A program made the position numbers and the translations under genes. Below are positions 22,367 to 30,138 of a DNA stretch of 48,723 bases, one piece after another. Where the stretch lies: positions 183,901 to 232,623 of the forward strand of contig NZ_GL883078.1 in assembly GCF_000204015.1 (NCBI RefSeq). The letters run 5' to 3'. Under the pieces are notes generated by a model. It saw only the letters and a program-made list of their open reading frames with translations, ran no database searches and was not told where the DNA came from. Position 1 is the stretch's first letter. Every line of letters starts with the position of its first letter. Source of the stretch: Asticcacaulis biprosthecium C19 (lineage in GTDB: Bacteria > Pseudomonadota > Alphaproteobacteria > Caulobacterales > Caulobacteraceae).

Positions 22367-23227
22367 TTAGCCCGGCCCAGCAACGCTAGCAAGCGCCGGC
22401 GACAGAAACGCCTCAACCTCCGCAACGAACCTTTCCGGTGCCTCCCACTGGGGATAATGGCCGCACTTATCGATCCGCACCACCCGCGCATCCGGAAGCA
22501 ATCGCCCCGCGACCTCTACCTGCTTGACCGGGAAGACACGGTCCTGCTCGCCCCACAACACCAGGACCGGGCGATGCAAGCCTTCAGCCGCACGGGCGAA
22601 ACTCTCTGTTCCTTTGACGCCGAATGGCCCGAGACCCGACACCACCGTGCGAACGAAGGCGGCGTGGCTACCCGGACGGCGGGCGAAGCCAGCCGCCAAA
22701 TCGATCAGCTCCCGCGTGGCGAAATGCCTGTCCGCCATCGACAGGTTCAGCGCATAGGCATTGGACAGCCAGGTCGGTCGCCCCAGAGCATAGCCAACCC
22801 ATGGCAGGGTCGGCGCGCGCAACGACAGGTCACATTCGCGCCCGAACCCGCCCGGCGCCATGACCACAGCGCGGTCGATACGCGCCTGGTGATTTTGTGA
22901 CAGGCGCACCACCGTGCTGCCGCCTAAGGAACTGCCGACCAAATGCGACCGGGCCAGGCTCAGGTGATCCATCACCGCCACGACCTGAGCGACGAAGAAG
23001 GCGGAATCATAGGTCGCGTCCGGCCGATCTGCCTCGCCGAAGCCCGGAAAGTCGAAGGCGATCACCCTGAACCGACCCGCCAATTTCGGGATGATCTTGC
23101 CCCAGATCTCGATCGACAGGGCCAGGCCATGCAGCAGTATGACCGGGTCGCCCGGACCACCCGAATCGAACAGCCGGGTGGCGTGCCCGGTCCCAAGACG
23201 GATTCGCGAAACAGGAAGATCGAGCAT
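22367..23227 (-). CDS. Alpha/beta hydrolase
   Basis: A 286-residue serine hydrolase of the alpha/beta fold. The oxyanion-hole motif is LLHGLALS, the nucleophile elbow is GSSLGG with Ser100, the acid lies in WGEQDRVFP, and the histidine in CGHYPQWE. The pattern resembles meta-cleavage-product hydrolases and haloperoxidase-like esterases, but no specific substrate can be assigned. There is no signal peptide, so it is cytoplasmic. It is followed on the same strand by an unknown 144-residue protein. A palindromic repeat element lies just upstream of its start. Confidence 0.88.
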   Translation of the reverse strand: MLDLPVSRIRLGTGHATRLFDSGGPGDPVILLHGLALSIEIWGKIIPKLAGRFRVIAFDFPGFGEADRPDATYDSAFFVAQVVAVMDHLSLARSHLVGSSLGGSTVVRLSQNHQARIDRAVVMAPGGFGRECDLSLRAPTLPWVGYALGRPTWLSNAYALNLSMADRHFATRELIDLAAGFARRPGSHAAFVRTVVSGLGPFGVKGTESFARAAEGLHRPVLVLWGEQDRVFPVKQVEVAGRLLPDARVVRIDKCGHYPQWEAPERFVAEVEAFLSPALASVAGPG

Positions 23228-23295: not shown

Positions 23296-23402
23296 TTTAG
23301 AGCGCGTATCGATCCTGAAGAATCGGATCGGCGCTCTAAACCTTTTTGTTTTGACGCGCATCTTATCCGAAAAGTGCGTCACACCTTTCGGATAAGATGC
23401 GC
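23296..23402. repeat. Double palindromic intergenic element (RIME-like)
   Basis: Two adjoining hairpins. The first has 10-base arms (TTTAGAGCGC 23296-23305, GCGCTCTAAA 23331-23340) with an inner CGATCC/GGATCG stem. The second has perfect 17-base arms (23356-23372 and 23386-23402) around a 13-base loop, with the core ATCTTATCCGAAA. The look and composition resemble the mobile intergenic palindromes common in Rhizobiales. It separates the alpha/beta hydrolase from the five-gene cluster and overlaps one possible start codon (ATG 23397) of the next gene. Confidence 0.8.
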
Positions 23403-23429: not shown

Positions 23430-24377
23430 TTGATACTCTGGAACCTGCTGATCTCCGAACAGCTGGACCTGCGCTTTTCGCCGTCGCGCGGACTGACGGT
23501 GCGCATCGTCGAACGGCCGGGCCAGTGGATGGCGCCGGACGAACTCACGACCCTGATCGATGAATGCCGCGACGTCGCCACGGCCTGCCTGGAGGGCGAA
23601 ACCCTCGACTACGGCATACTGGTGCCCGGTTCCGACGCCGCCCGTCGGACTATCATCACTATGATCTATGACAACGAAGGCCGGCCCATCGCCTTCAACG
23701 CCCTGCCGCTGATCCCGGCGACGCTCGGCGGCGAGCGCCTGGAGGTGCTGCATCTTGGCCTGGTCATGGTCCATCCGTCGGCGCGCAGTTCCGGCCTGTC
23801 GTGGATCCTGTATGGCCTCACCTGTTTCCTGCTCTTCGTCCGCCGCCAACTGCGTCCCCTGTGGATCAGCAGCGTCACCCAGGTTCCCGCCGTGGTCGGC
23901 ATGGTCTGCGAATCTTTCGACGGCGTCTGGCCCGGCGCGCCCGACGCCCGCGCCACCTTCGCTCACCACTATCTCGGCCGCCACATCGCCCTGAACCACC
24001 GCATCGTCTTCGGGGTCGGCCCCGATGCCGGCTTCGACGACACCCGCAGCGTCTTCACCAATGCCTATACCGGCGGCTCCGACAACCTCAAAAAAACCTT
24101 CGATGTCGCGACGAAGCACCGCAACGAAGCGTACAACGCCTGGTGCGCCCGCGAGCTGGACTATGGCCGCGGCGACGATGTCCTGCAACTGGGCCAGCTC
24201 AACCTGGCCTCGGCGCGCGGCTTCCTGCTCAAATCGACCCCGCGCCACGCCCTGCCGCAGCTGGCTGTCCAGGTCCTGCTGCTGGGCGTGCAATCCGTCG
24301 TCGCTCCCCTGGCCCAATGGCTGGCCGGCAACCGCAGCCTCGGGCGCCTGCGCCCCTTCCGACAGGCCAAACCATGA
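23430..24377 (+). CDS. GNAT-like protein, first gene of the five-gene ThiF/nitroreductase cluster
   Basis: A protein of 315 residues (TTG start at 23430) or 326 (ATG at 23397). I prefer 23430: GGGGA lies 6 bases upstream, while the ATG at 23397 sits inside the repeat hairpin and would add repeat-derived residues. The central part resembles an N-acetyltransferase fold, with LHLGLVMVHPSARSSGLSWIL as the acyl-CoA-binding strand-loop-helix (near residue 110 counting from 23430). A cysteine-containing LWISSVTQVPAVVGMVCESF follows. The C-terminal 90 residues are helical and end in a hydrophobic stretch (LPQLAVQVLLLGVQSVVAPLAQWLAG) that may touch the membrane. The stop overlaps the ThiF-like gene (ATGA). 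No precise family is recognised; the substrate is unknown. Confidence 0.72.
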   Translation: MILWNLLISEQLDLRFSPSRGLTVRIVERPGQWMAPDELTTLIDECRDVATACLEGETLDYGILVPGSDAARRTIITMIYDNEGRPIAFNALPLIPATLGGERLEVLHLGLVMVHPSARSSGLSWILYGLTCFLLFVRRQLRPLWISSVTQVPAVVGMVCESFDGVWPGAPDARATFAHHYLGRHIALNHRIVFGVGPDAGFDDTRSVFTNAYTGGSDNLKKTFDVATKHRNEAYNAWCARELDYGRGDDVLQLGQLNLASARGFLLKSTPRHALPQLAVQVLLLGVQSVVAPLAQWLAGNRSLGRLRPFRQAKP

Positions 24378-25252
24378 CAGAAGCCTTTTCCTACGACCAG
24401 ATGACCACACGCAATGCCGGCTTCGTCACAGCCGCCGAACAGGCCCGGCTGCGTGAGGCCTCGGCCTTCATCCCGGGCACCGGCGGCATGGGCGGCGCGG
24501 CCTTCATGGCGCTGGTACGCGCCGGCATCGGCCGCTTCACCATCGCCGACCTCGACAGGTTCGAGGTGTCGAACCTGAACCGCCAGCTGTTCGCCAATCT
24601 CGACACGGTCGGCCAGCTCAAGGCCGAGGCCGCCGCGCAAGCCGCCCGCAAAATCAACCCCGGCATCGACATCACCGTCATGGGCGCCGAATGGGTCGAC
24701 GACCTCGACGTCATCGCCGTCAACCACGACATCCTGGTCAACGGCATGGACGACGCCGGCGCCGGCGTTCACCTCTACCGCCAGGCGAAGCAACATGGCC
24801 GCACGGTCATCGACGCCTACGCCTCGCCCCTGCCGTCGGTCATCGTCGTCCGCCCCGGCGACCCGCGGCCGGAAGAACGCCTGGGCTACCCCACCGTCGG
24901 TACCGCCTGGCGCGAGGTTACCCCCGATATGCGCGTCCAGTGCCTGATGGCCGAGATCGAGTACGTCCTGGTCCATTCCTCTTCGCACCTCTATGTCGAT
25001 CTCGAGATCGCCGCCGAGGTCGCCGCCGGCCGCCGTTCGCGCTTTTCCTTCTCGACCATGGTGACCATGGCCGGCACCCTGATGGCCGAAGAAGCCATCC
25101 GCCACATCCTGGGCCGCAAGGGCGGCGCCGACTGCCGCGGCTACTTCTTCAACCCGCACGCCGTGCGCATCGAACGTCCCCTAAACCCGCTGCTGGCCTG
25201 GCCCAAACGCCAGCTTGTTCGCCGCTTCATGCAGAAGATGATGGGGTCATGA
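24374..25252 (+). CDS. ThiF/MoeB/E1-like adenylyltransferase
   Basis: A 292-residue enzyme of the ThiF superfamily, which activates a C-terminal carboxylate (of ThiS/MoaD-like proteins, ubiquitin-like proteins or peptides) with ATP. The nucleotide site is GTGGMGG (35-41), then Asp59, the DRFEVSNLNRQ motif with Arg70-Gln71, Lys83 and Asp126 (NGMDD). The two CxxC zinc motifs of MoeB/ThiF are missing, and the only plausible catalytic cysteine is Cys190 (TPDMRVQC). It starts at ATG 24374 in an ATGA overlap; a longer frame from 23801 is a shadow of the previous gene. No ThiS/MoaD-like carrier protein is nearby, so the substrate may be a small molecule or a peptide encoded elsewhere. Confidence 0.88.
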   Translation: MTEAFSYDQMTTRNAGFVTAAEQARLREASAFIPGTGGMGGAAFMALVRAGIGRFTIADLDRFEVSNLNRQLFANLDTVGQLKAEAAAQAARKINPGIDITVMGAEWVDDLDVIAVNHDILVNGMDDAGAGVHLYRQAKQHGRTVIDAYASPLPSVIVVRPGDPRPEERLGYPTVGTAWREVTPDMRVQCLMAEIEYVLVHSSSHLYVDLEIAAEVAAGRRSRFSFSTMVTMAGTLMAEEAIRHILGRKGGADCRGYFFNPHAVRIERPLNPLLAWPKRQLVRRFMQKMMGS

Positions 25253-26430
25253 GCCTGGCCCCCATGCCGCCCGCCGACGCCGCCATGAACGCCATCGCCC
25301 TGGCAGGGCTGGCCTTCGCCCTGGTGGCCGTGCCGCGCGGACCACGCGCCGGACCGCTGGACCGGCGCCTGGGCGGCCTCTATACCGGCCTGCTCGTCTT
25401 CCTGGCCCTGCGCCAGATCTTCTGGGCCATGGGACAGGCGTGGATCGTGCCCCTCATCATGGCTGCGGCCGCCTGGTTGCCGCTGCTGATCCTGCTGCTG
25501 GCCGAAGAAGTCCTGCGCCGCCACGCCGCCCGCACCGTCAAATGGTTCGTCCTGGCCGGCGGCGTCGCCTCGACCCTGGCTGCCCTGACCCTGGGCGCCA
25601 ACTGGCCGCCCCTGGCGCTGCGCGGCTTTGCCGCCTTCCAGGTCCTGACCCTAGCCCTAGTCATCGGCTTTATCCTCAAGAACCGCCGCTACGAACTCAG
25701 CCCCGCAGAAACCCGCATGGCCGACAGCGTCGCCCTGGCCCTGGTCGTCTGCCTTCCCCTGACCCTCAGCGAGTTCCGTGGTCTGTTTCCAGGGCTTCCG
25801 GTTACGCTCGCAGCACTCGGCGTCCTGTTGTTCGCCGTCATGAGTTCGGCCCTGGCCGCCGGGGTCGGATCGCCGGCGCGCTTCGGACTTGACCTGTCCG
25901 CCCTGGCCGCTACGGCCGCGGTCGTCACGACCGCCATGGCCTGGCTGGTCCCCGCCCTTGGCACCGGCGACCTGGTCCGCCTGGGCGTGGCGATCGCCTC
26001 GGTCAATGCCGCCGCCCTGATCATCGCCCGTCTCAACCAAGCGCGCAGGCTGGGCCACCGTCGCTCCTCCATCGCCGCGACCCTGGCTGCTCTGCCCGAT
26101 CCGGCCACGCCCGACATGATGATCGGCGCGCACCCGACCACGGCGGCGGGCCGGATCATCGCCGGCGACGGCCTGGCCCTCTATGGCGCCGACATCGTGA
26201 CGGCGATCGGTGGCCACCGCGTCCTCAACCGCGCCACCACCACCGAGCCCGAGATCGCCGACGCCATCCGCAACCTGCTGGACGAACACGGCGCCACCCA
26301 CTTGCTCCGGCTGTCGCCCCAGCCCCTGCGCCTGCTGGCCATCGCCTCGGGCAGCCTGGGCGGCAGCGACGCCATCGAAACCGACCTGGCCCTACTGTCG
26401 CGCCTGGTCGAAGGACAGGCCGCATGCTGA
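25249..26430 (+). CDS. Polytopic membrane protein with soluble C-terminal domain
   Basis: A 393-residue inner-membrane protein with about eight to nine hydrophobic helices (roughly 11-29, 42-60, 67-88, 98-117, 125-144, 159-176, 183-204, 216-237, 244-262), then a soluble C-terminal part of about 130 residues (GAHPTTAAGRIIAGDGLALYGADIV...). The tail resembles a small sensory alpha/beta domain, but no kinase, cyclase or transporter motif is seen. The ATG at 25249 overlaps the ThiF-like stop (ATGA); the longer frame from 24691 lies inside that gene. It could be a sensor, a scaffold or an exporter of the cluster's product. Family not recognised. Confidence 0.75.
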   Translation: MSLAPMPPADAAMNAIALAGLAFALVAVPRGPRAGPLDRRLGGLYTGLLVFLALRQIFWAMGQAWIVPLIMAAAAWLPLLILLLAEEVLRRHAARTVKWFVLAGGVASTLAALTLGANWPPLALRGFAAFQVLTLALVIGFILKNRRYELSPAETRMADSVALALVVCLPLTLSEFRGLFPGLPVTLAALGVLLFAVMSSALAAGVGSPARFGLDLSALAATAAVVTTAMAWLVPALGTGDLVRLGVAIASVNAAALIIARLNQARRLGHRRSSIAATLAALPDPATPDMMIGAHPTTAAGRIIAGDGLALYGADIVTAIGGHRVLNRATTTEPEIADAIRNLLDEHGATHLLRLSPQPLRLLAIASGSLGGSDAIETDLALLSRLVEGQAAC

Positions 26431-27521
26431 CACTGGTCTCCGGCAATCGCGACGCCTTTTTCGAAGCGCCGTTCCATGCCTATCCGGCCGACGGCCCCTA
26501 TGTCTCGCCCATGCGCAGCGACATCCTGCGCATGCTGGACCCGACCGACAACCCGCTGCTCAACGCCGGCAATCCTTACGCCTTCTGGACGGCGCACCGC
26601 GACGGCCGGCCCATCGGCCGCATCATCGCCCTGGTCCATCAGCAATCCAATGCCCGCCACGGCACCCGTCGCGCCCAGTTCGGCTTTTTCGACTGTGCCG
26701 ACGATCCCGAGGCCGCCGCCCTGTTGCTGGACGCCGCCAAGGACTTTGCCCGCCGCCACGACCTGACCGAACTGGCCGGCAACTTCAACCTGACCGCCAT
26801 GCAGCAGGCCGGCGTGGTCACCGAAGGCTTCGACGCCCGCGCCTATACCGACATGGTGGTCAACCCGGCGCACATCCCGACCCTGCTGGAACGTAACGGC
26901 TTCGAAGCCTTTTTCCCGATGTCGACCTTCACCCTCGATCTCGCCACGGCCACCCCGCCGCAACCGGACTGGGACGTGCTGGCTGCGGCCGGTTACCGTT
27001 TCGCCCCCATCGCCCGCAGCGACTTCAAGGCCCGCATGGAGGAAGCCCGCATCGTCCTCAATGACGGCTTCAGCGACAATCCGATGTTCGTGCCCCTGAC
27101 CGCCGACGAGTTCGACTTCCAGGCGCGCGAGATGATGACCATCCTCGATCCGCGCCTGTCGGCCATGCTGCACCACGACGGCCGCCCGGTCGGCACCATA
27201 ATCTGCATTCCCGACCTCAACGGCTTCATGAAGGCCAGCCGCTCGCGCTATGGCCTGAGCGCGCCCTGGCACTTCCTGCGCTACCGCCTCAACCGCCGGC
27301 GCGCCGTGATCATCTTCTATTCGGTGGCCCGCGACCACCACGGCCTGGGGCTGAACTCGGCCATGCTGGCTCGGGTGATCAATGCCCTGAAAACCAGCGG
27401 CTATGACGAACTGGGCATTACCTGGATCGCCGACCAGAACGCGGCCAGCCTGCGCCAGATGGAGAAGATCGGCGCCCAGCGGTTGCAGCGCCTGCACCTG
27501 TTCCGCAAGGCGATCGCATGA
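26424..27521 (+). CDS. Second GNAT-like protein of the cluster
   Basis: A 365-residue cytoplasmic protein. The N-terminal region (FHAYPADGPYVSPMRSDIL, GRPIGRIIALVHQQSN, FGFFDCADDPEAAALLLDAA) looks like a GNAT domain, and the C-terminal half contains an acyl-CoA-binding-like strand and loop (FYSVARDHHGLGLNSAMLARVINAL) followed by ELGITWIADQNAASLRQMEKIGA, the typical end of a GNAT fold. So it may be a tandem GNAT. The start overlaps the previous gene by 7 bases and its stop overlaps the nitroreductase start (ATGA). The acyl donor and acceptor are unknown. Confidence 0.8.
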   Translation: MLTLVSGNRDAFFEAPFHAYPADGPYVSPMRSDILRMLDPTDNPLLNAGNPYAFWTAHRDGRPIGRIIALVHQQSNARHGTRRAQFGFFDCADDPEAAALLLDAAKDFARRHDLTELAGNFNLTAMQQAGVVTEGFDARAYTDMVVNPAHIPTLLERNGFEAFFPMSTFTLDLATATPPQPDWDVLAAAGYRFAPIARSDFKARMEEARIVLNDGFSDNPMFVPLTADEFDFQAREMMTILDPRLSAMLHHDGRPVGTIICIPDLNGFMKASRSRYGLSAPWHFLRYRLNRRRAVIIFYSVARDHHGLGLNSAMLARVINALKTSGYDELGITWIADQNAASLRQMEKIGAQRLQRLHLFRKAIA

Positions 27522-28501
27522 GCCTGTCCTCCGATCAGATCCACACCGTCGTGGCCGAAGCCGCCTTCGCCCCCAATGTTCACAACATCCAGCCGGCGCG
27601 CTGGCGGTTCACCGGCCAGGACGTCATCCTCTATGAAGACACCTGCCGCCGTCTGCCAGCCGGCGATCCGACGGGTCGCGACAGCGCTATCAGCCTCGGG
27701 GCCGCCGCCGAAGGCCTGGCCATCGCGCTTTCCGCCCAGGGTTGGGGGCTGGAAGACAATCCAGATCCCCAGCCTGACGAGGCACCGATGCGTTTCGTCC
27801 ACCGTTTCCGGCTGGTGAAGCGCGACAGCGAGGATATCCTCTATCGCGTGTTGCAGCGACGGTATTCCCACCGCGGTGCCTTCCTCCCGCTCAAGCCCCT
27901 CGATCGTCAGGCGGCGCAGGGCATGACCGGCGACAGCCTGGCGGTGATCACCGAGCCCGAGGCCCTGGCTCAGGTCGCCCGCGCCTATGATGCAGCCAGT
28001 CTGAGATTTTTTCGCGATGCGGCGTTCCGCGCCGAGCTGGTTTCGTGGATGCGGTTGTCACGGACACATCCGCGCTGGGCGCTGGACGGTCTGAACGCCG
28101 AGGCCATGGCTCTGTCGCCGGTCGAGGCTATGGGGGCCGGCTTCGTACTGAAACCGCGCGTATTTTCGGTGTTGGATACCATCGGACTCGCCGGACCTTT
28201 GACGGGAGAAGCTTCGCGGGTCACCGACAGCGCCGCCGTGGTCGTCTTTCACCGGCCGGTGGGCGAAGATCCGTTCATGTCCGGCCGTGAATTTCATCGC
28301 AACTGGTTGAGGATGGTCGCCGCAAGCTTTCAGGGCGCGGTCATGGCCGCCCTGGCCGATGACGTGGTTGCCAGCGCCACCGTGGCCCGATTGACAGGCT
28401 TGGACGCTTCGAAGAGGATTATCTCCACCTGGCGGATCGGCCGCGTGACGGGTTTGCCGCCTGCCCGCGCCCGCCTGCCGGTCGACGAAATTCTGGTCTA
28501 A
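27518..28501 (+). CDS. Nitroreductase-family flavoprotein (Acg-like)
   Basis: A 327-residue protein of the FMN-dependent nitroreductase fold, longer than classical 210-residue nitroreductases and closest in layout to the Acg/Rv2032-type double-domain proteins. Visible features are APNVHNIQPARWRF near the N-terminus (FMN phosphate-binding region), RRYSHRGAFLPL mid-protein, and a C-terminal SFQGAVMAALADD segment. It could oxidise or reduce the product made by the acyl- and adenylyl-transferases of the same operon. The ATG start overlaps the upstream stop (ATGA), and the gene end overlaps the convergent cytochrome gene by 4 bases. Confidence 0.85.
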   Translation: MSLSSDQIHTVVAEAAFAPNVHNIQPARWRFTGQDVILYEDTCRRLPAGDPTGRDSAISLGAAAEGLAIALSAQGWGLEDNPDPQPDEAPMRFVHRFRLVKRDSEDILYRVLQRRYSHRGAFLPLKPLDRQAAQGMTGDSLAVITEPEALAQVARAYDAASLRFFRDAAFRAELVSWMRLSRTHPRWALDGLNAEAMALSPVEAMGAGFVLKPRVFSVLDTIGLAGPLTGEASRVTDSAAVVVFHRPVGEDPFMSGREFHRNWLRMVAASFQGAVMAALADDVVASATVARLTGLDASKRIISTWRIGRVTGLPPARARLPVDEILV

Positions 28502-30138
28502 AGCTTCTTAAGGTAGGCGATCAGGTCGCGCTTCTGGGCCGGCTTCAACTCCGCCCCAAAATCATGCCCGCCACTGCCATAACCGGGCGCGGAGGTCTCC
28601 AGAACCCACGGCTGCGACCACGGCACATACCCCGCCGGGTACGATCCGTTTGCGGTCAGGTCGATCCCCACCGTATCGAAATTCAGGCGATGCCCTCCCA
28701 CCATGAAGCGCCCAGGCCGCGGCGCCAATCCCAGAAGCGCCGCCAAGCTAGGCACGGAGCCATTGTGCAGGTAGGGCGCCGTCGCCCACAGCCCTGACAG
28801 GGGTGGCGCGGCGTAGAGGCCGGTCGCCGACGCCGTCATCGGCTTTCCGTACGCGGTCGCATTAACGGCGCGCGACAACTCCGGACTGAAGGCCCTGGCA
28901 CGCGCTGGGTCGGTGCCGACATCGCCCGCCCAGTTGGGGAAGCTAACCAGGCGCGGTGTGGCACCGCTGTCGTCATAGCTGCCGTGACAAGCGGCGCAAG
29001 CCTGGCGGTAGACCTCGCTGCCCCGCGCCGCAGCCCGTTCATCCGCTGTCCCCGGAAACGGCTGCGGCCGATAGCTGCCCAGAAAGGCGTAGATGTCGTC
29101 CGCCTTACGGATGTTTCCGGAAGCCCGTTTGGGACTGATCCCCATACTCGGAACCGAAAAGAAGGTGGTGATCGTGGCCAGGGATTTCACATGCTGCGGC
29201 GTGATATCACGGGTGCCCATCATCCTGGCCTTGGTCCCCGCCGGCGCGTAGGCCCCGTCATACAGCAGGCTTGTCCGGAAAGTACGCAGACCCAGGTCAG
29301 GAATCGAGGTCACGCCGTATTCACTTTTCCCACCACCGTCCATCGGCACATCCAGCGCCAGTTTCAACGCCGCCACACCATTGGTGGCGCCGGGACTGCC
29401 GTTCGGGAACGGCAGGGCGCGTCCCTCCGCTTTCAGATCTTTCAACCGGTCGCGCACCCGCGGCAGAACCAGATTCCGCAGCGCCCACCGTTCGCGCACC
29501 GACATCTCCGGAAACAGGATCCGAACGGCCGCCATCAGGGCATCCGGATCATCGACCGAGGCGACGTAGGCGTCATAAACCGCCGAGGTATACAGTTCGA
29601 GATTGAGTGACGTATTGGGCGCTCCCAGCCAAGCCGTCTGCGGGACCGGTCGCCCCCTCTTATCATAGGTTGCGCCGGCATGGCACGAAGCACAGCCCAG
29701 GTTTGACACCGTCACCGGCACGCCAGGCAGGATCTGCACTTCGCCATACGTCATGCCCAGCGGCAAGGCCGAGGCGACCAGCGCCTTCCTTCCTGGCCAG
29801 TTGCCAAGGCTTTGCGGGTGCAAAAATCCGAATCGAGCCAGTTCATCATCCAGTGTCGCCCGCGACAGGGGCAAATCGGGCTGTCGCCGGCGCGCCTCAA
29901 CGACCAGGGCAGCGGCGCTGAGCCGCCACGGCAGGGCGTGAGTTTCCAGGCTGTGCGCGCTTAGGCCACCGAAATCCTCGGCATAAAAATAGACCGCCCC
30001 GCGTTCGGCGGCATCATCGGGAAGTCTGGCCGGCAGCAGGACTGACGAGGTCGCTGCGAGACTCGACCACAGGACAAGACCCGCTACGGCCGCGGTGGCG
30101 ACAGCTGCCGCTGTCCATGCGTGCTTTCCGAATGTCAC
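28498..30138 (-). CDS. Di-haem c-type cytochrome (cytochrome c peroxidase/RoxA-like superfamily)
   Basis: A 546-residue exported protein. An N-terminal hydrophobic helix (about 9-30) is a signal peptide or anchor. Two haem c attachment motifs are present: CASCH (Cys149, Cys152, His153) and CAACH (Cys381, Cys384, His385). The C-terminal APPLSGLWATAPYLHNGSVPSLAALL segment is the hallmark of the di-haem peroxidase-like domain, with NGS near the distal haem region. The architecture is reminiscent of RoxA-type and MauG-type proteins, which oxidise substrates at one haem. The actual substrate is unknown. It is convergent with the nitroreductase gene and lies upstream (in its own direction) of nothing on the same strand within 4 bases. 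Confidence 0.85.
   Translation of the reverse strand: MTFGKHAWTAAAVATAAVAGLVLWSSLAATSSVLLPARLPDDAAERGAVYFYAEDFGGLSAHSLETHALPWRLSAAALVVEARRRQPDLPLSRATLDDELARFGFLHPQSLGNWPGRKALVASALPLGMTYGEVQILPGVPVTVSNLGCASCHAGATYDKRGRPVPQTAWLGAPNTSLNLELYTSAVYDAYVASVDDPDALMAAVRILFPEMSVRERWALRNLVLPRVRDRLKDLKAEGRALPFPNGSPGATNGVAALKLALDVPMDGGGKSEYGVTSIPDLGLRTFRTSLLYDGAYAPAGTKARMMGTRDITPQHVKSLATITTFFSVPSMGISPKRASGNIRKADDIYAFLGSYRPQPFPGTADERAAARGSEVYRQACAACHGSYDDSGATPRLVSFPNWAGDVGTDPARARAFSPELSRAVNATAYGKPMTASATGLYAAPPLSGLWATAPYLHNGSVPSLAALLGLAPRPGRFMVGGHRLNFDTVGIDLTANGSYPAGYVPWSQPWVLETSAPGYGSGGHDFGAELKPAQKRDLIAYLKKL

Follow-up and report, generated by a model that had tools for sequence, protein, structure and literature searches.

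A conserved five-gene operon of Asticcacaulis biprosthecium C19 with acyltransferase, ThiF-type and flavin oxidoreductase genes, possibly for an acyl-oxazolone-type product

Introduction

Five tightly packed genes in the alphaproteobacterium Asticcacaulis biprosthecium C19 raise the question of whether they act as one biosynthetic system and, if so, which kind of compound this system would deliver. The genes, termed P1 to P5 here (Table 1), lie in a window of 48,723 nucleotides (assembly GCF_000204015.1, contig NZ_GL883078.1, positions 183,901 to 232,623 of the forward strand), within which all positions below are counted. An earlier reading of the bare sequence (the original prediction) had proposed a possibly undescribed biosynthetic or signalling system making an acylated, adenylate-activated and flavin-oxidised small molecule or peptide, with the membrane protein as its sensor or exporter.

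Acyl-oxazolones have been linked to genes only in recent years. Clusters combining an acyltransferase, a ThiF-type enzyme and a flavin oxidoreductase stand either for oxazolone biosynthesis (TyzABC, TrzAS, OxzAB) or for the proposed synthesis of N-acyl dehydrotyrosines (PMC10404671; PMC12856293; PMC12479983), so that the term “undescribed” does not hold for this kind of cluster. TyzA N-acylates tyrosine or phenylalanine, TyzC desaturates and TyzB cyclises (PMC10404671), while TrzS (Rv1355c) cyclises N-acyl-tryptophan and then desaturates it, tryptazolone being made together with TrzA (PMC12856293). In these two cases the combination of acyltransferase, ThiF cyclase and flavin-dependent oxidoreductase (FDO) acting as desaturase was demonstrated biochemically, which lends support, by analogy, to the chemistry proposed in the original prediction. 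For the N-acyl dehydrotyrosines, a set of N-acyl-amino-acid synthase, ThiF protein and nitroreductase was proposed, and no oxazolone was seen (PMC12479983). The physiological role of acyl-oxazolones is termed a major unresolved question (PMC12856293).

By analogy to these systems, we propose that the operon makes a fatty-acylated amino acid, which would be activated, ring-closed and desaturated to an oxazolone-type (azlactone) or dehydro-N-acyl-amino-acid product, a proposal whose chances we judge to be evenly balanced.

The five genes form a conserved operon

All five genes lie on the plus strand between positions 23430 and 28501 and overlap by 4, 4, 7 and 4 bases, exactly as first described. 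A survey of relatives anchored on P1 (a profile scan of genome contigs gave 261 relatives, the best 80 of which were kept) recovered P1 to P5 together in 49/80 loci, 48 of them in the order P1-P2-P3-P4-P5 on a single strand; the one permuted locus, from a gemmatimonad metagenome-assembled genome (MAG; L101), reads P4-P5-P1-P2-P3. Five further loci lack only P4, 23 carry P1 and P3 alone, and three are odd or cut (L068, L086, L091). P3 follows downstream of P1 in 79/80 loci, the contig of the exception (L091) ending first.

In a stricter-scoring set of 51 loci, comprising the window, the genomes G042 and G683 and 48 of the 80 best relatives, exact 4-base overlaps were counted in a manner that requires the frame of the downstream gene and is independent of start-codon choice (for an earlier junction count and for the pair loci discussed below, the start codon was picked for the smallest gap). 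From the first to the last junction, this overlap was found in 46/51, 39/51, 34/50 and 40/51 loci, versus 8/51 for a control at the P5 stop in any frame. As the pattern recurs at every junction (34–46 of about 51 loci), the overlaps are not a product of chance. Judged by record titles, the 51 loci belong mainly to Alphaproteobacteria, with one Lysobacter, one Cupriavidus, MAGs labelled Gemmatimonadota (two) and Acidobacteriota (one) and four loci lacking taxonomy. Its range thus takes in Alpha-, Beta- and Gammaproteobacteria as well as MAGs carrying these two phylum labels.

That five unrelated genes became neighbours by accident could be argued from the rarity of P2, which has an orthologue in just one of 60 near relatives (among 61 genomes, our own included, only G000 and G042 carry it). 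The recurrence of the operon across these groups, however, leaves this explanation with practically negligible probability, and chance co-location was rejected on the basis of order, recurrence and overlaps across distant taxa. The five genes are a real, conserved and co-inherited operon; their joint occurrence in distant genomes was also the test by which the original prediction had wanted its idea of one dedicated system to be judged.

Table 1. Features of the operon and its surroundings (window coordinates).
Feature	Position	Strand	Description	Family or motif
P1	23430..24377	+	divergent GNAT-fold acyltransferase, 315 aa, TTG start	fold by AlphaFold/Foldseek
P2	24374..25252	+	292-aa adenylating enzyme of the ThiF type, predicted to act as cyclase	PF00899
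P3	25249..26430	+	nine-helix membrane protein with a C-terminal alpha/beta domain of ~100 residues	
P4	26424..27521	+	second GNAT acyltransferase, 365 aa	PF00583
P5	27518..28501	+	FMN-dependent oxidoreductase, 327 aa, predicted desaturase	nitroreductase superfamily
CYT	28498..30138	-	di-heme c-type cytochrome, hydrophobic N-terminus	RoxA-like motif; two CxxCH
ABH	22367..23227	-	alpha/beta hydrolase, divergent from P1	PF00561 (1.9e-35)
Palindrome	23357..23401	.	45 bp, near-perfect, between ABH and P1	

Within the phylum, the distribution of P1 is patchy (8/398 genomes, one match being a fragment). Profiles of P2 and P4, built from G000, G042 and G683, found, in the same 398 genomes, these three at 594–560 and 748–716 bits, with the next matches at 109 and 170 bits; as the same genomes seeded the profiles, the values show a gap and not an independent count. 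In the 51 loci, orthologues of P2 and P4 reached at least 281 and 277 bits, respectively, versus at most 109 and 170 bits for matches outside.

The G+C content is 0.675 in the operon and 0.619 and 0.630 in its flanks. In a tree of 87 P1 rows, the window's P1 pairs with that of G042, a genome from another family of the same order (96/81). Both belong to a set of 23 rows (100/99), most of which carry Sphingomonadales record titles, and G683, from the same family as the window's genome, is placed elsewhere. Tree placement, G+C content and the rarity of P2 in near genomes together fit a horizontal gain. On this tree the five-gene label needs eight changes and the pair label seven, so that repeated losses or regains of P2, P4 and P5 must have occurred; we infer that the five-gene form is older than the P1-P3 pair.

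A promoter and terminator scan gave no more matches than shuffled sequence. In the annotated record of Rhizobium sp. WL3, P1, P3 and P5 are named hypothetical proteins, and the five-gene form was undescribed in the searched titles and abstract openings of the open-access literature. The operon is real and widespread, with new parts and most probably a recently recognised chemistry.

P2 lies on the tree side of ThiF-type enzymes encoded near acyltransferases

The P2 protein matches PF00899 (ThiF) at 7.3e-36. In 56 sequences, G35, G37, G38, M39, G40, G41, D59, D61, N67, N69, R70, Q71, K83, D126 and D127 are at least 97% conserved, residues which correspond to the ATP-binding and adenylation site of MoeB and ThiF, and their retention supports an activating step in the proposed pathway. 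No cysteine column exceeds 30/56 sequences, so that conservation extends neither to a zinc CxxC pair nor to a catalytic cysteine of the E1 type, in agreement with the earlier remark on the missing zinc motifs and in contrast to the MoeB/ThiF enzymes of sulfur-carrier activation.

Being E1-like, P2 could alternatively serve a ThiS/MoaD- or ubiquitin-like conjugation or the maturation of a ribosomally synthesised and post-translationally modified peptide (RiPP), as its ThiF fold and sub-cut-off matches to MoeB, ThiF and PADLOC E1-E2 profiles might suggest. We consider this highly improbable: the overlapping genes have no space between them in which a carrier or precursor could be encoded, the conserved cysteine is missing and P2 stands apart from MoeB-like paralogues. 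In a tree of 64 ThiF rows, a branch with 100/99 support splits 28 rows (15 P2, 11 acyltransferase-associated ThiF proteins, L207 and a ThiF-hydrolase fusion, L135, the latter two on very long branches) from 36 other ThiF-fold paralogues; in all ten of the 36 that were typed, MoeB models are the two best matches, and six of the ten proteins lie above the PRK05690 cut-off. A pairing of P2 with a ThiS/MoaD pathway, named beforehand as an outcome that would speak against a dedicated system, was thus not seen, and such a pathway was dismissed on the cysteines and this separation. Moreover, among 877 small open reading frames (ORFs) collected from 800 bases upstream and 500 bases downstream of the 51 loci, none of the ten most widely shared lies upstream. 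All ten are downstream, where the cytochrome gene CYT is encoded in many loci and with which they presumably overlap. A RiPP precursor beside P2 was rejected on this survey.

The position of P2 on the acyltransferase-associated side of this branch is one of the supports of the oxazolone-type proposal, the surroundings of the outside ThiF genes another. Twelve of 20 listed genomes were read, namely the 11 best and G682, picked for its long frame. In 11/12 loci a TIGR03694- or FeeM-like-type acyltransferase gene lies within ~4 kb (none in L207); as the three acyltransferase queries came from three of these loci, the finds in eight of the remaining nine count as independent. A nitroreductase gene is adjacent in L199 and L204 and fused in L202 (3/12 loci). 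The same queries found nothing in 88 P1 loci and nine P4-relative loci used as control. The TIGR03694 cut-off is passed by the acyltransferases of L198 and L202, that of PRK08223 by the L135 fusion and by the ThiF portions in L196, L198 and L202. Of further support is the FeeM-like acyltransferase of L199: its match (1e-10) is to the N-terminal portion of PRK14852, a family that continues with ThiF and nitroreductase portions. Loci with the PEP-CTERM/exosortase-associated acyltransferase (TIGR03694) and a PRK08223 ThiF gene resemble the operon in the tree side of their ThiF protein and its nearness to an acyltransferase gene, but differ in the acyltransferase family and in having a nitroreductase in only the three loci mentioned. 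The ThiF subclusters of PMC12856293 may include P2.

By eye, some of the PRK08223-kind ThiF genes near acyltransferase genes in L196–L206 appear to lie in exosortase surroundings; these loci are possibly unrecognised N-acyl-amino-acid pathways. In L135, a Bradyrhizobium genome, a PRK08223-type ThiF is fused to an alpha/beta hydrolase, echoing the hydrolase beside the window's operon.

P1 and P3, a putative divergent acyltransferase and its membrane partner

P1 has no match in Pfam or NCBIfam. Its AlphaFold model (predicted local distance difference test, pLDDT, 82.7) matches GNAT structures in Foldseek (best 1.1e-5), and PF00583 touches 15/52 members of the family weakly (best 0.0038), so that the claim of two acyltransferase-like proteins stands by domain match for P4 and by fold for P1. 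A conserved stretch at residues ~107–130 resembles the coenzyme A (CoA) loop of GNAT enzymes. An alternative in-frame ATG lies upstream at 23397; the G042 homologue begins at the position equivalent to the TTG at 23430. Kinship to P4 was rejected, as was kinship to the TIGR03694/FeeM-like acyltransferases on profile comparison, and from its modelled fold P1 looks like a new acyltransferase family with predicted catalysis.

For P3, the AlphaFold model (pLDDT 93) places nine long helices in the first 271 residues, followed by the alpha/beta tail, which agrees with the 8–9 helices and soluble tail first described. R55, P78, E86, R91, H92 and K98 are invariant in 58 sequences. Its fold search gave no PDB fold at E ≤0.001, and PDB sequence searches with P1 and P3 gave no credible match. 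The 7TMR-DISM_7TM domain (PF07695) was found in 6/58 P3 members under an E limit of 1, the best value being 4.9e-7, and not in the window's P3, a weak sequence-level hint at a sensor or exporter.

These two genes could also be read as the core of a signalling system, in which P1 would make an acyl signal, a P3 resembling seven-transmembrane (7TM) proteins would sense it, and P2, P4 and P5 would be tailoring add-ons. In fact, the 23 loci with the P1-P3 pair alone contain no P2 orthologue elsewhere in their genomes (the best match, 1.3e-27, is the ThiF-hydrolase fusion), and the pair overlaps by 4 bases in 22/26 pair loci examined, with starts chosen for the smallest gap (in the pair locus L123 the contig ends inside P3, where P4 and P5 cannot be judged). 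The 7TMR-DISM matches point in the same direction, but the one matching member examined in detail reaches only 19.4 bits versus a cut-off of 29, 7/10 P3 members scanned gave no family match at E 0.1, P3 carries no known output domain and its fold matches resembling G protein-coupled receptors are not significant (best E 0.036). We therefore regard this explanation as distinctly unlikely. A related idea appears to be a long shot: P1 would synthesise an N-acyl-amino-acid signal and P3 would be its receptor or exporter, some bacteria using this previously unknown pair alone and others converting the signal into an acyl-oxazolone with the help of a ThiF cyclase, a flavin desaturase and an acyltransferase resembling ceramide synthase. 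A synthase-receptor pair would, if true, be a signalling system akin to that of N-acyl-homoserine lactones (AHL) with a membrane receptor.

P4 and the lipid acyltransferase alternative

In P4, the C-terminal GNAT domain matches PF00583 at 3.4e-9. Among the outside relatives of P4, loci were read for 9 of 40 genomes with matches, and in 7/9 LptF/LptG genes lie within ~2.5 kb (two of these loci supplied the seeds of the profile, and Pfam confirms three). The same genes surround the Caulobacter ceramide synthase (CerS) gene CC_1154 (PMC11324152). The nearest outside relatives of P4 are thus found in CerS-like surroundings, whereas the score gap given above (at least 277 versus at most 170 bits) separates them from the P4 orthologues, the sequence of CC_1154 itself lying outside the comparison. 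None of the 88 P1 loci has LptF/LptG nearby, i.e., none around P4 itself.

Such surroundings would suit a membrane lipo-amino-acid pathway, in which P4 and P1 would be lipid acyltransferases, P2 would activate a carboxylate for amide or ester transfer instead of ring closure and P3 would be a scaffold or flippase. A gene resembling an acyl-acyl carrier protein (ACP)–phospholipid O-acyltransferase in 15/88 loci (one copy typed, PRK06814) would fit as well, although all 15 loci come from rhizobia, at least by label, and may have only their surroundings in common. Since a ThiF protein together with an FDO means cyclisation and desaturation in the characterised cases (PMC10404671; PMC12856293), we consider this pathway rather unlikely, yet credible.

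In a Nonomuraea record (L131, 4724–6900), a GNAT gene resembling P4 has a P5-like gene directly behind it, and the gene upstream resembles, by eye, that of a PaaK-type adenylate-forming enzyme.

P5 is an Acg-like flavin oxidoreductase

P5 scores best with NF047509, the model of the Acg-family oxidoreductases dependent on flavin mononucleotide (FMN; 1.8e-40, 139 bits, under the cut-off of 199), and PDB entry 2ymv (Acg) matches at 2.4e-11, consistent with the Acg-like nitroreductase foreseen. The parallel drawn to Rv1355c was of relevance for the combination of ThiF and nitroreductase, this protein now being known as TrzS (PMC12856293), but did not extend to P5 itself, which is closer to the Rv3131 model. 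Membership of P5 in the branch of ThiF-associated nitroreductases was ruled out by a tree of 20 rows, for which the program warns of long branches.

Actinobacterial plasmid loci, tried as oxazolone references, yielded Acg-like enzymes and not TrzS and were discarded as such. The proteins of L134 and L129 reach 302 and 293 bits with NF047509, and in a Streptomyces plasmid (L132, 2656–5978) an Acg-like oxidoreductase gene and the gene of an MMPL transporter have 4 bases in common.

A proposed pathway and its weak points

The oxazolone-type proposal builds on the conserved operon with its recurrent exact overlaps (all five genes in 49/80 loci and five more without P4 only), on the ThiF results described above and on the biochemistry of TyzABC and TrzAS (PMC10404671; PMC12856293). 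We infer the whole scheme as follows, from the single reactions and their order to the end product and to what P3, P4, CYT and ABH contribute. P1 would use an acyl thioester for the N-acylation of an amino acid; it is preferred over P4 as first acyltransferase since five loci keep P1, P2, P3 and P5 with no room for P4. P2 would then adenylate the carboxylate of the N-acyl amino acid with ATP, the amide oxygen closing the ring, and P5 could desaturate the alpha-beta bond using FMN and O2. P4 might add a second acyl group or share the acylation, and P3 might handle the lipid product in the membrane by binding, export or sensing. Loci with P1 and P3 only would end at the acyl product, and CYT and ABH may act later on the product.

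The operon shares with the TyzABC, TrzAS and OxzAB systems, whose known products are N-acyl oxazolones, the adjacency or fusion of acyltransferase, ThiF and FMN enzyme genes. Operon-like genes of this kind were also reported for the thalassotalic acid, kyonggic acid and stieleriacine clusters, and in two producers they overlap or come close to it (PMC12479983). In contrast to these clusters, genes found by the TIGR03694/FeeM-like queries are missing from all 88 loci and P3 and P4 are added; likewise, TyzABC, TrzAS and OxzAB differ from the window's operon, which has a second GNAT and a membrane protein and whose P1-P3 pair also occurs alone.

Several findings weigh against our proposal. Profile comparison of P1 with the TIGR03694-type and FeeM-like sets gave hhalign probabilities of 0.4% and 0.7%, and neither an AHL synthase nor a FeeM structure is among the 50 fold matches shown for P1; TyzA and OxzA sequences were outside this comparison. 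P2 reaches 116 bits with PRK08223, whose cut-off is 266, and does not form a single clade with the 11 associated ThiF proteins in the best tree, although a tree constrained to this clade is not rejected (p 0.29); the grouping was made without TyzB, OxzB and TrzS sequences. Six P5 orthologues score 111–159 bits with the Rv3131/Acg model (cut-off 199) but 42–61 bits with the Rv1355c model, P5 groups at 100/100 with four proteins matching Acg/Rv3131 best (two of them above cut-off) and the ThiF-associated nitroreductases of L199, L202 and L204 lie apart from it. PMC10404671 links FDO-A, not FDO-B, to oxazolones, and P5, with the Rv3131 model scoring best, falls outside the FDO-A group. The operon most probably works in the manner of the known systems. 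As the acyltransferase and the FDO lie outside the known groups and the ThiF protein is placed only tentatively, it is best described as a variant and not as a member of the oxazolone pathway.

The operon looks like an acyl-oxazolone counterpart in bacteria of soil and water that are easy to grow, including Sphingomonas, Bradyrhizobium, Rhizobium, Ensifer, Brevundimonas and others. It brings in a new acyltransferase family with a membrane protein tied to it, and product and role thereby become testable. Of all clues, the unbroken association of P1 with P3 is the likeliest to reveal the purpose of the compound.

Neighbouring genes and elements

Apart from the operon itself, the cytochrome gene CYT (PF21419 at 1.1e-16; NF040606 at 6.2e-35, under cut-off) was found within the fetched stretch in 33/80 relatives, 31 of them five-gene loci and two without P4. 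It is directly convergent with P5 in 31/80 loci and placed elsewhere in L107 and L114. As 13/18 five-gene loci lacking CYT extend more than 5 kb past P5, its absence within that distance is real. In L125, a MauG-like protein is encoded in its place.

ABH, found in 5/80 relatives at more than 60 bits, has the same place in G042 and lies near CYT instead in G683 and a few others. The 45-bp palindrome between ABH and P1, whose exact 18-base arm occurs a single time in the genome, is a possible operator or terminator.

The O-acyltransferase-like gene mentioned above, typed in L068 only, lies downstream on the other strand in L066–L069, L071, L077, L078, L081–L083, L086, L087, L090, L096 and L098, and CYT accompanies it in 0/15 of these loci.

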